Assembly: GCF_000415985.1 (NCBI RefSeq)
Contig: NZ_KE356561.1
Location: 382,944-446,943 of the forward strand
Direction: 5' to 3'
Origin: Haloquadratum walsbyi J07HQW2
Lineage (GTDB): Archaea > Halobacteriota > Halobacteria > Halobacteriales > Haloferacaceae
DNA: 64,000 nucleotides
A program made the translations under genes and the position numbers. Under the pieces are notes generated by a model. The model had not been told where the DNA came from. It searched no databases and saw nothing but the letters and a program-made list of their open reading frames with translations. Below are positions 14,262 through 18,974 of the stretch, piece after piece; the stretch's first letter is position 1, and each line of letters begins with the position of its first letter.

Positions 14262-15335
14262 ATGACTGATACTGAATTCTCAATTCCCCACACTGACAAA
14301 GTATCGCCCAGTGATATTCGACCAGATGCCACCCTCTCTGAGGTTGATCTCACCGATGCTAACCTCACTGAGGCTATCCTCACTCGTGCCGACCTCTCTG
14401 ATGCCGATCTTACTGACGCCACCCTCGCCGATGCTGATCTCTCTGAGGTTGATCTCACTGACGCCACCCTCACCGGTGCTGACCTCACCGGTGCTAACCT
14501 CACTGACGCATACCTTTCTGACACCGATCTTACTGATGCCGACCTAACTGGTACCGATCTCACTGGGGCGGTCCTCGCTGACACCGATGTGACAGACACC
14601 CAGTTGGCAGATGCTCACTTTCGGTATACAATTCCTAATGATGAGCATATCTTGCCTCACGATATTGTTCCAGAGGCGACCCTCGCCAACGCCGACCTCT
14701 CTGAGGCTGATCTCCGTTTTGCCGACCTCTCCGAGGCTGTCCTCCGTTTTGCCGACCTCTCAAGTGCCGACTTCATCGGTGCAAACCTCTTGGGAGCCGA
14801 CCTTTCGAAGCCGACCTTTCGAACGCCGACCTCACCGACGCCATCCTCACTCGTGCCGACCTCACCGACGCCGACCTCAGACATGTCGACCTCTCTGGTA
14901 GCTATCTTACTGACGCCGATCTTACTGATGCCGATCTCATCAATGCTGATCTCTTCAACGCCGACCTGCCCAATACCGACCTCACCGGTGTCAGCCTCTC
15001 TGATGCCAACCTCTCCTACGCCAACCTTACTGGTGTCAACCTCTCTGATGCCAACCTCTCATACGCCAACCTCACCGGTGTCAACCTTTCTGGTGCCAAT
15101 CTCACCAACGTCTACCTCATGCGTGCCGATCTCTCTGGAGCAGACCTCACCGACGCCGACCTCACTGATGCATACCTCCTCAACGCCACCCTCACCGACG
15201 CCGACCTCACTGACACCAACCTCTCCGACGCCACTCTCACCGATGCCGATTCTGATGCGGATGCTGACCTCCCGGATGGCGTGCAAGACCCGGAGACGGA
15301 CACGGACACGGACACGGAGTGAGAGGGGTCGATGA
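14262..15335 (+). CDS. Pentapeptide-repeat protein, frameshifted mid-gene
   Basis: The A(D/N)LxX repeat runs from about residue 25 (L-T-D-A-N-L-T-E-A-I-L) and would form a right-handed quadrilateral beta-helix. The repeat stays in frame to about 14809. There two tandem copies of the 14-mer GCCGACCTTTCGAA (14796-14809, 14810-14823) replace two 15-mers, so one base is missing. Beyond it the pentapeptides continue in another frame to a stop at 15322, ending in an Asp-Thr tail. The open frame to 15335 instead encodes a Thr/Pro/Ser-rich nonsense stretch. Pentapeptide proteins include DNA mimics and scaffold proteins; the role here is unknown. It could be a pseudogene, a slippage variant or a sequence error. 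Confidence 0.75.
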   Translation: MTDTEFSIPHTDKVSPSDIRPDATLSEVDLTDANLTEAILTRADLSDADLTDATLADADLSEVDLTDATLTGADLTGANLTDAYLSDTDLTDADLTGTDLTGAVLADTDVTDTQLADAHFRYTIPNDEHILPHDIVPEATLANADLSEADLRFADLSEAVLRFADLSSADFIGANLLGADLSKPTFRTPTSPTPSSLVPTSPTPTSDMSTSLVAILLTPILLMPISSMLISSTPTCPIPTSPVSASLMPTSPTPTLLVSTSLMPTSHTPTSPVSTFLVPISPTSTSCVPISLEQTSPTPTSLMHTSSTPPSPTPTSLTPTSPTPLSPMPILMRMLTSRMACKTRRRTRTRTRSERGR

Positions 15336-16626: not shown

Positions 16627-17049
16627 GTGATTTTAGGCTTTGGCTTGATTGATTCGTATATTTCTATTGTTACTATTCAACCTGAGAGTTTCAGTACAGT
16701 ATTCACTTTAGTGTATCTCTTTGTATCACTGCTTATCATTAAGTCGTTTATAAATAAGTCAATCTTTCAGAATAACGCTATATCAATGATTGAGAGGAAA
16801 ATATCGAATTCTTCAACGAGTGAATCTCTATTGATATTTGCTCTCATGGTGGCTCCAGTTATTATTATATTCTCAGTATTACGGTTCAATGACTGTGAGC
16901 CGTTTCAAATTGGCACACGGTACACGTATGATGAACTAATGTTATTCTTGACGCTTCTGCCGTCAGTGTATATTTCTGTGTTATCAGAGTCACAAGAGGA
17001 TAGTGTTCTTTATTTGATTCGAAGAAATATTTATGTCTACGTTATGTAA
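16627..17049 (+). CDS. Membrane protein, N-terminus possibly lost
   Basis: The 140-aa frame from GTG 16627 has membrane segments at about 1-12, 25-45, 68-88 and 105-122. The same frame is open 87 bases further upstream and encodes a good first helix (I-S-K-T-D-F-G-L-L-A-T-V-I-V-L-F), but it contains no ATG, GTG or TTG before a TAG at 16537. Either the start codon was lost or an unusual start is used. Base composition is more AT-rich than the neighbours. It ends 11 bp before the SUI1 gene. Function unknown. Confidence 0.5.
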   Translation: MILGFGLIDSYISIVTIQPESFSTVFTLVYLFVSLLIIKSFINKSIFQNNAISMIERKISNSSTSESLLIFALMVAPVIIIFSVLRFNDCEPFQIGTRYTYDELMLFLTLLPSVYISVLSESQEDSVLYLIRRNIYVYVM

Positions 17050-17060
17050 TTAAATGTATA

Positions 17061-17363
17061 ATGACGAGTAAGATTTGTGAAACGTGTGGACTTCCAACTG
17101 AATTATGTGTTTGTGCTGATATCGCAACAACAGGATTACACACCACTCTTTCCTTAGAGGAGCGTAGTTTCAATAAAGTAGTTACATTGATTAATGGAAT
17201 TAATGATACTACTATAGACATTAGCTCATTGGCAAGCAATCTTAAACGATCTCTTGGTTGTGGTGGAACTATACAGGATGATGGAACCATTGAATTACAG
17301 GGAGATCATCGAGATCGTGTTCCAGATTTACTTGATGAGTATAGTATTCGTGTTGAATTATAG
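17061..17363 (+). CDS. Translation factor SUI1/eIF1 family
   Basis: This 100-aa protein matches archaeal aIF1 (SUI1). An N-terminal four-Cys cluster (C6, C9, C16, C18) is followed by the beta-hairpin and helix K-V-V-T-L-I-N-G-I. The core is L-K-R-S-L-G-C-G-G-T-I-Q-D-D-G-T-I-E, then Q-G-D-H-R-D-R-V. aIF1 binds the small ribosomal subunit near the P site and helps select start codons. Length and all core residues are normal for the family. The gene starts at ATG 17061, right after the membrane protein gene. AT-rich codon use suggests it travelled with that block; haloarchaea often carry more than one SUI1 paralog. Confidence 0.88.
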   Translation: MTSKICETCGLPTELCVCADIATTGLHTTLSLEERSFNKVVTLINGINDTTIDISSLASNLKRSLGCGGTIQDDGTIELQGDHRDRVPDLLDEYSIRVEL

Positions 17364-17430
17364 TTCGGATTAATATTTTATATCAAATTGAAATCAATGT
17401 TATTATTGGGATATACTATCAATATTGCAT

Positions 17431-17726
17431 ATAAAAACTGAAATATTACAGATTAGTGATACACATTTAGGAAGATGTCAATATCGGAGTGAAATTAGAT
17501 AACAAAATTATTTTGATGCGTTTAATTAAGTGATTCACATTGCTATTGAAGATGATGTAGATGCAGTAATTCACAGCTGTACCGAGGCGGAAGCCCACCC
17601 GTTTACGGGTGGGAGGAAGCCGACAAAATTGACACGGGAGATTTATTCGATGAGTCGTCACCTTCGGTTCCAATAGTAAATCAAACAATTGATATTATGC
17701 GTGGTTTAGCTGATGCTAAGATTCCA
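17431..17726 (+). pseudogene. mre11: mre11 N-terminal relic with palindromic insertion
   Basis: The frame reads E-I-L-Q-I-S-D-T-H-L-G-R, the phosphodiesterase motif I of the Mre11 double-strand-break nuclease. It continues to D-D-V-D-A-V-I-H, and after a 59-bp insert (17575-17633) resumes with T-G-D-L-F-D-E-S-S-P-S-V-P (motif II). It then reads I-V-N-Q-T-I-D-I-M-R and stops matching after L-A-D-A-K-I-P. The expected start ATG is ATA (17431), and two CAA codons have become TAA. Only about 80 codons of roughly 400 remain, so the fragment is dead; a working copy must lie elsewhere if Mre11 is made. Confidence 0.85.
17575..17633 (+). mobile_element. 59-bp palindromic insertion (mini IS end)
   Basis: The insert interrupts the mre11 relic exactly between the His and Thr codons of motif II. 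It carries the perfect hairpin CCCACCCGTTTACGGGTGGG (17594-17613) followed by AGGAAGCC. That is the form of the IS200/IS605 right ends in this window, with AC repeated at both edges. It may be a minimal non-autonomous unit or a REP-like sequence. Confidence 0.65.
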
Positions 17727-17748
17727 TCCCATGACATTTGCCGCTAAG

Positions 17749-18513
17749 ATGAGCGACAAGACGCTGACTGTAGTTTTGACCGGCACCACCGAAGAGAAGC
17801 GGCGTCTCAGTGATGCCCACTGGGACACCGGCACGCGAGGTCTCGAGGTGACACTTGACCACCTCCGACGTCGGTCGCAACCCAAGCGGTATTACTCAGG
17901 ACACGAATTGTGTATTGTATTATACTGTATGTCGAAAGCGACGGGGGACCCCGAACGCGCCATTAATGGTCTTCTGTCAGTGGCACAACTACTCGAAGAG
18001 CCACGGCTCGCTCGCCTCTACACGTATATTCTCCGTGAAGGCGAAGTGACGATTGATGAAATCGTCGCCGACATCGACACGCCCCGCACGACCGCGTATG
18101 CGGATACGGGGACACTCGTTGATCTCGGGGTACTCACGCGGGATGAAACGCAGAAAACGCACACCTACATGGTCATCCCGATTAGCCTTACTGCGAACCT
18201 CGATGGCGATACATACACGATCACGCCCACACTCGTCGAGGCAATCGATCGGTCGCCCCAGGATCAGGATCTCGACCTGCTGATCGAGAAACATGGCGTA
18301 GGCGAGCTCGCTGCGGCACTCACGTACGCGATCCGGTATGTCGAGGGCAGGATGACCGACCGTCTCGCAGCACGCGACCTCAATCTTCAACCTGCGTTCG
18401 GGATTGCGGTACTCCAGGCACTCCGTGAGGTGATTTTCGACATGCGGGAGTACGATCCATATTTCGACCAAATTCGGAATGCGCGTGACAAGCCGGTCGA
18501 CGAGGAAGCGTAG
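17749..18513 (+). CDS. Winged-HTH regulator, DUF7437-like
   Basis: This 254-aa protein runs from ATG 17749, chosen because the upstream 12 codons are relic mre11 DNA. The centre (about 95-140, A-R-L-Y-T-Y-I-L-R-E-G-E-V-T, then T-P-R-T-T-A-Y and L-V-D-L-G-V-L-T-R-D) is a classic winged helix. The following region (Y-T-I-T-P-T-L-V-E-A-I) and a helical C-terminus resemble haloarchaeal DUF7437 proteins. Those proteins often precede a PIN-domain gene, and here a PIN fragment follows 14 bp downstream. It is therefore a plausible antitoxin or autoregulator whose partner has been destroyed. Confidence 0.75.
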   Translation: MSDKTLTVVLTGTTEEKRRLSDAHWDTGTRGLEVTLDHLRRRSQPKRYYSGHELCIVLYCMSKATGDPERAINGLLSVAQLLEEPRLARLYTYILREGEVTIDEIVADIDTPRTTAYADTGTLVDLGVLTRDETQKTHTYMVIPISLTANLDGDTYTITPTLVEAIDRSPQDQDLDLLIEKHGVGELAAALTYAIRYVEGRMTDRLAARDLNLQPAFGIAVLQALREVIFDMREYDPYFDQIRNARDKPVDEEA

Positions 18514-18527
18514 GAATTCTCTCATGC

Positions 18528-18712
18528 ATGCAAGGGACGACCGAGTCGATACCTGAGAACGCGGTATGGATTGCTGATTCAGGCGTTGTCATTGCCTGTG
18601 GCCGCCAACAGCAGAACAAGTATACAGCGCTGGCGCTGGAACGGTTCGCCCAGCGGAACGAGATTCTGTTTGTGATTTCGCAGCGGGTGCATGAGGAACT
18701 TGGCGGTGCGCC
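18528..18712 (+). pseudogene. PIN-domain toxin-like gene, truncated
   Basis: About 62 codons remain. A-V-W-I-A-D-S-G-V-V-I-A-C-G-R has the first PIN aspartate, and V-I-S-Q-R-V-H-E-E-L-G-G has the next acidic pair. The match stops at about 18712, where minus-strand transposase sequence begins. PIN proteins cleave RNA and in this position usually form the toxin of the upstream regulator. Without the C-terminal aspartates the fragment cannot be active. The open frame runs on to 18767 only by chance. Confidence 0.7.
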
Positions 18713-18713
18713 A

Positions 18714-18974
18714 GACCGCAGCAGCGCCCCCCATACCCACATTTTCAGCCGGTCGAACGACTTGTAGTCCGGGAGGTCGTCCCGATCTAAGCCGAGTGCG
18801 TCACGAATCTCGACGATATACTTCAACCGATTCGGCGTTTTACGGTAGCCGTGACCGTCTTCAAGCCGAAGGCAGTGCAAAACGACGTGCTTCCCCAACG
18901 CTTGTTTGACTAGGCGCCGACATTGCTCAACGAAGTCGAGGAGATCGATTTCCTCGGATTCGTCCTTCTACTCG
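18714..18974 (-). pseudogene. IS5-like transposase N-terminal fragment
   Basis: The minus strand reads D-F-V-E-Q-C-R-R-L-V-K-Q-A-L-G-K-H-V-V. It goes on with Y-R-K-T-P-N-R-L-K-Y and L-P-D-Y-K-S-F-D-R-L-K-M-W-V-W, the N-terminal part of a common haloarchaeal IS5-type transposase. A short internal stretch is missing after G-K-H, the catalytic domain is absent, and the fragment abuts the broken PIN gene. It is probably the insertion that truncated it. Confidence 0.75.

Follow-up and report, generated by a model that had tools for sequence, protein, structure and literature searches.

The genome of Haloquadratum walsbyi J07HQW2, a single contig of 3.59 Mb, holds a fragment of an mre11-like gene which is interrupted by 59 bp bearing a hairpin, and the question raised by this locus is which part of a mobile element these 59 bp represent and how they came to stand there on their own. 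Short elements named PATEs and 52-bp terminal-only versions of them have been described in Haloquadratum, with core deletions between hairpin repeats, in the main text of Dyall-Smith et al. 2011 (PMC3119063). Six strain-specific insertions of the 52-bp terminal-only kind are reported there which 'may indicate' mobility, the main text leaving undecided whether terminal-only elements move or are debris. The stretch analysed here, called the window, comprises 64,000 nucleotides (G000:C1:382944-446943); genomes are given G numbers and loci L numbers, G000 being the genome which contains the window.

The interrupted gene lies at window positions 17431-17729 on the forward strand, the insert following the histidine codon of motif II. 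The phosphodiesterase motifs of Mre11 are named I (DxH) and II (GD), and both are present as DTHLG and TGDLFD on opposite sides of the insert. The peptide obtained by reading through is identical in 26 of 46 residues (57%, E 1e-13) to L013, an intact Mre11-like gene of this genome coding for 405 amino acids, in agreement with a preliminary description made from the letters alone, which had recognised an mre11 relic retaining both motifs. An intact reading frame is absent owing to two in-frame TAA codons at 17500 and 17527, as had been described, to the insert, and to a truncation after about 80 codons, beyond which the 3' neighbour is a regulator gene of the TrmB/DUF7437 type. Both stops had also been derived from CAA. 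This origin is well supported for the second one, which aligns with glutamine in 16 of 18 homologous loci (two of these from the same genome and one a weak match of 32%), and is unsupported for the first, which aligns with arginine in 15 of the 18 and with glutamine in one. ATA occupies the start position as stated; since a TTG stands in frame two codons upstream at 17425, the proposed loss of the start is likely rather than proved. Intact mre11 genes, for which a search had been proposed, occur twice in the genome, the second one (L015, 524 amino acids) also matching the read-through peptide. A match to this peptide is found in 16 of 17 genomes of the genus, J07HQW2 included, the closest one outside J07HQW2 being 51% identical.

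Table. Features of the interrupted mre11 relic in window coordinates
Feature	Position	Strand	Description and basis
mre11 relic, 5' part	17431..17574	+	from motif I (DTHLG) up to VIH in motif II; translation, paralogue alignment, 18 homologous loci
TTCAC, left cut/target (cut tetranucleotide TCAC)	17570..17574	+	includes the motif-II His codon; TnAn rule, joined flanks
Insert	17575..17633	+	59 bp, left end nt 1-59 of IS605/IS1341 type; one hairpin, no transposase, no right end
Guide tetranucleotide GAAG, 5' of the hairpin	17590..17593	+	predicts cut TCAC; guide rule 38/40 left ends
Hairpin	17594..17613	+	9-nt arms CCCACCCGT / ACGGGTGGG, 2 nt between
Left-end-type tail AGGAAGCCGACAAAATTGAC	17614..17633	+	final five bases TTGAC form the right edge of the insert
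mre11 relic, 3' part	17634..17729	+	TGDLFDES...AKIPS, then truncated; translation, paralogue alignment

The insertion is base-precise, as excision of 17575-17633 joins ATTCAC to ACGGGAGAT and the joined flanks read VIH/TGDLFDES (the slash marking the junction), in line with VIHTGDLFD in the paralogue L013. The position exactly within motif II and the AC repeated at the edges, both noted before, are thus real, with TTCAC ahead of the insert and TTGAC at its end. A target duplication is absent, the joined flanks VIHTGDLFD containing no extra codon. The insert begins with AGCTG directly behind TTCAC, which means behind a cut tetranucleotide of the T[TC]A[CT] type. Its hairpin arms pair perfectly over 9 bp, and upon folding as DNA the hairpin has a z of -2.27, 4 of 200 shuffles folding as well. 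With up to 3 mismatches allowed, a 35-base core of the insert occurs once in the window (0.00 expected), and by this rarity together with the fold z a chance hairpin is ruled out. Rfam yielded no match in window 16800-18600 at E <= 1. The 3-kb locus around the insert (L028/L001) contains no transposase match, so that the insert is a stub and not an element.

Judged from alignments, the 59 bp are the left end of an element of the IS605/IS1341 type. A 381-base query around the insert was compared with 72,556 plasmid records, of which 10 matched, all of them within a stretch made up of the insert and at most 24 preceding bases. Three records (L006, L007, and L008) have tnpA/tnpB annotated immediately behind the match and on its strand, which identifies the match as the left end. 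When 10 left ends were locally aligned to the unit, the alignment started at nt 1 in six, at nt 6 in one, and at nt 11 in three; it stopped at nt 46-52 in eight and reached nt 59, AAATTGAC included, in the two from the archaeon A07HR60 (taken to be G156). Nucleotides 1-59 of the unit align with left end 1-58 of the A07HR60 IS1341-type element L048 in 52 of 59 positions, and the left end of a second A07HR60 copy matches 51 of 59, up to nt 59. Against L048 the unit scores 81, 1,000 shuffled units at most 25. Both A07HR60 copies have tnpB matches behind the left end, truncated in one copy and gapped in the other, and a tail nearly equal to AGGAAGCCGACAAAATTGAC stands within the left end and continues towards tnpB. 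The TTGAC edge of the insert is thus ordinary left-end sequence, and a right-end tail is absent from the insert. The eight right ends tested have only 8-29 nt in common with the unit, in or around the hairpin; that of the second A07HR60 copy (G156:C10) reads CAAG-CCCACCGCTTCAGCGGTGGG-TAGCTGAC, the hairpin lying between CAAG and TAGCTGAC.

In elements of this kind the sequence also carries information on how the ends were cut. For IS608, the part of the source used here (PMC5934647) describes pairing of a guide tetranucleotide with the cut tetranucleotide, AAAG with TTAC at the left and GAAT with TCAA at the right. The rule was scored with the four bases before the hairpin as guide, base 2 of the cut pairing with base 1 of the guide and base 4 with base 4. 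For a recount, all distinct left-end-like hairpins caught by one pattern among 85 loci were taken which had a transposase match downstream, the left cut being defined solely by a TnAn 17-20 nt ahead of the stem. Of the 41 left ends belonging to elements with transposase, 40 had such a TnAn, the exception (L190) remaining unscored, and the rule held at both positions in 38 of the 40 and at one position in two (L022 and L166). Shuffled guide and cut pairings gave a mean of 13.2 and a maximum of 24 in 10,000, figures which are no strict probabilities because the left ends are mutually related. An earlier hand-picked set of left ends had followed the rule in 28 of 30. The fit of 11 of 11 right ends is partly circular, as their cuts had been set by the author from the tail motif except in L005, where the host gene fixes the right cut, the joined flanks reading GNH/DRAITNPTEYY and then a stop.

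The recount comprised 61 distinct left-end-like hairpins in total, 14 of the 85 loci being missed by the pattern. Besides the 41 with a downstream transposase match there were 20 without one. They include the window unit, the one-hairpin units L165 (same place as L189), L185, L193, L197, L199, and L204, the loci L191, L201, and L203 with a second hairpin, L198 and L200 of ambiguous length, L021 and L033, L024 (beside which about 60 residues of the host, an ACR3-like gene by the author's reading, are absent), L178 (whose left cut is at odds with the guide at the edge used), and L037, L168, L171, and L181. L194, the seventh one-hairpin unit, was missed by the pattern. Two more loci were excluded, L010 for its diverged start and L179 for a tail other than CCGAC.

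Applied to the insert, the rule yields a different answer for the two edges. At the left, the cut TCAC agrees with GAAG, the guide of the unit itself, in both positions. At the right, the edge TGAC agrees with GAAG in one position and with the right-end guide seen in this subfamily, CAAG, in both, and is therefore read as the old right cut: TGAC is the right cut belonging to CAAG in this subfamily, TTGAC being at the same time the native left-end sequence at that spot. The left edge thereby goes back to the left guide, and the right edge looks set by the guide of a lost right end. On this sequence basis, the simplest reading of the right edge is an old right cut joined to a TGAC inside the left end.

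The explanation modestly favoured, ahead of movement of the stub as such, is an in-place collapse, a join at TGAC having removed the element from its left-end nt 60 up to the right cut. A haloarchaeal IS605/IS1341-type element would have entered the mre11 gene or its relic right after TTCAC, and its interior and right end, the latter probably of the CAAG/TGAC type of the same subfamily, would then have been deleted in place, the TGAC at nt 56-59 of the left end becoming fused with the same four bases at the right cut. Two routes are conceivable. The single-strand transposase TnpA may have mis-cut, the right-end guide directing it to the internal TTGAC in place of the genuine left cut, so that the donor was sealed with a left-end stub, or a deletion at 4 bases of microhomology may have taken place without transposase. 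The left-end identity, the base-precise edges, and the left cut fitting the adjacent guide are observed and agree with a collapse. Also counted in its favour is a TnpA of the same genome (L002:1643-2296) with a full Y1 domain (PF01797, E 4e-32). As a published parallel, section 30 of PMC3119063, in the text used here, describes core deletions in Haloquadratum with the complete element in one strain and the terminal-only form in the other. Neither a longer element nor an empty site was found in relatives, the 5' part of the relic being detected by DNA in one of 170 genomes of the family, which is J07HQW2 itself, so that the collapse is not directly observed. Counted against it is that the other one-hairpin units end in CCGAC, sharing GAC but not the T of TGAC. 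In sum the evidence suggests that IS605-type elements can collapse into one-ended stubs.

The preliminary description had proposed a search for identical 59-bp units; none occurs elsewhere in the J07HQW2 genome, where two left ends, both diverged (85% and 83%), pass the threshold of E <= 0.001, the A07HR60 left end as query adding two more distant ones (82% and 78%). A pattern search of 17 genomes of the genus found 17 related left-end hairpins in eight genomes. A transposase match lies downstream of six of these. Another three, followed by a further hairpin at a distance of 197-252 bp, are short two-hairpin PATEs, and two which resemble each other (L198 and L200) are of ambiguous length. The remaining six stand alone, neither a transposase match nor another hairpin of the element type being present within 1.5 kb. 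With L185 of J07HQW2 included, one-hairpin units like the insert number seven, spread across G097, G092, G098, and G000. Their resemblance to the left end ceases past CCGAC, 11 nt beyond the hairpin, the match up to CCGAC being imposed for six of the seven as the search pattern ended there. Guide and left cut agree in both positions for six of them and in one position for L189; the right edge fits the unit's own guide at one position in each. Conceivably, though this is put forward only tentatively, one-hairpin stubs with a left-end tail and an xGAC right edge are a regular TnpA product in haloarchaea, a right-end guide cutting a look-alike inside the left end and excision sealing the donor with a left-end stub. 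If true, terminal-only elements would be explained without hairpin recombination, and each stub would be the record of a past excision. Guide and cut pairing lets the sequence tell which end made each cut, and the old question of whether terminal-only elements move or are debris thereby becomes testable.

The two possibilities of the preliminary description, movement of an end-only unit or collapse of a larger element, were the right ones to weigh. According to the first, the 59-nt unit would have moved as such, TnpA acting in trans and the single left-end hairpin serving both cuts (TTCAC left, TTGAC right); it would be a minimal non-autonomous element with one hairpin, in some ways comparable to the REP sequences of bacteria. 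That both edges resemble element cuts is in accordance with such a movement, as are the strain-specific insertions in the main text of PMC3119063 and the similar one-hairpin units in G092, G098, and J07HQW2 itself (L185). The best evidence comes from G097, where three unrelated sites carry L193, L199, and L204 with at most one base of difference between them; of the four pattern matches there, the only one with a transposase match has a different tail, and the trio looks more like copies of a unit than like separate collapses. Joining the flanks of L189 and L204 restores an immediate stop codon of the antisense gene, the joined frame of L194 running on. For the insert in mre11, however, the unit's own guide GAAG predicts a right cut TCAC and not TGAC, the edge lies 20 nt past the hairpin as compared with 8 nt in the right end of the subfamily, and the core plus tail is detected by pattern in one of 392 genomes of the order, J07HQW2 itself (A07HR60 is outside this sample), which otherwise holds diverged left ends only. 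Movement of the 59 nt is considered possible but less likely than collapse.

A fused terminal-only PATE, in which recombination between left and right hairpins deleted the core and left the left outer part, one hairpin, and the right outer tail, would follow the route published for the 52-bp elements of Haloquadratum in the main text of PMC3119063. It is improbable and, for the right ends seen here, largely rejected by the tail: the 20 nt past the hairpin are of the left-end type (AGGAAGCCGAC...) and not the right-end tail TAGCTGAC of the subfamily, and are also unlike the other right ends seen (TTAGCTTAC, TCACTGAC, and AGGAGGTCAA). A right-end-only unit, which the preliminary description had proposed with the left end missing, can appeal to a hairpin common to both ends but reverses the actual relation and is most improbable, a right-end origin being excluded by the full-length left-end match against right-end matches confined to the hairpin region, by the position upstream of same-strand tnpA/tnpB in the three plasmid records, and by the match from nt 1 in most of the aligned left ends.

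The insert is a variant of the terminal-only PATE, a kind known in Haloquadratum since 2011. With the H. walsbyi terminal-only elements HqIRS46 and ISHwa23 (PMC3119063) it shares a non-coding size of about 50 bp, one near-terminal palindrome, the lack of a target duplication, and the derivation from the IS605/IS1341 type. By the main-text description there, the supplementary tables being aside, those are ends fused via palindrome recombination, 52 bp with the target included, whereas the 59 bp of the insert are all left end with an internal TTGAC as edge, and fused outer ends are absent. Cut tetranucleotide and guide pairing are those of an IS200/IS605-type left end; continuation into tnpA/tnpB is missing. 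Guide and cut pairing is shared with IS608, whose pairs AAAG/TTAC and GAAT/TCAA recur among the ends studied here, the insert differing in that its right edge mismatches the sole guide present (PMC5934647, part used here). The REP sequences mobilised by TnpA-REP are, in the part of PMC8266576 used here, likewise single short palindromes related to IS200/IS605 ends, but are high in copy number and carry a GTAG motif, whereas the insert is single-copy with no GTAG in its 59 nt. Among the papers and passages covered on PATEs and on one-ended or left-end-only IS605 derivatives, none describes left-end-only stubs in this sense.

A related left end after a metallophosphoesterase histidine codon (AATCAC) is found in L005, an IS1341-type element on a plasmid of Salinibaculum sp. 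KK48 (L005:4020-5460). It differs in being full-length, with a tnpB frame and a right end, and since it lies in another gene and motif (GNHD) the insertion is taken as independent. As the cut TCAC overlaps conserved histidine codons, metallophosphoesterase active-site motifs may be recurrent targets, two cases being available.

Some further observations were made on the related units. The two-hairpin PATEs L201 and L203 (G092) and L191 (G095) have left- and right-type hairpins and no transposase match. L189, L204, and L194 (about 1483-1531, on the unit's strand) lie antisense at gene 3' ends and provide a C-terminal ESDSSHG and a new stop, the host genes being ribE, cupin, and DUF429-like in appearance by the author's reading; an unrelated-looking hairpin stands 644 bp past L189. 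In an empty-site comparison of L033 in 52 genomes (matches unaligned further) and L021 in 11, the matching flanks fell short of the junction or the intergenic parts were too diverged. Viral contigs gave no match to two exact patterns and phage records none by DNA or protein, and a pattern search of genome contigs gave four matches, two of them in Pseudomonas/Stutzerimonas. The TnpA frame in L002:1643-2296 extends to 217 amino acids instead of 129, and tnpB matches there occur in two pieces.

In the surroundings of the relic, a small gene with a SUI1/eIF1 domain (window 17061-17363, Pfam E 1.7e-18) lies directly upstream. A pentapeptide-repeat gene at 14262-15335 is seemingly frameshifted, its ADLT-type repeats leaving the frame at about 14,830 and reappearing in another frame at 15119-15322. 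Downstream, the stretch 17878-18723 with the TrmB/DUF7437 regulator gene and then a small gene is matched by all 15 of the matches listed, among 83 plasmid records, about nine covering both genes, and by the author's reading the second, small gene may be broken in the window.
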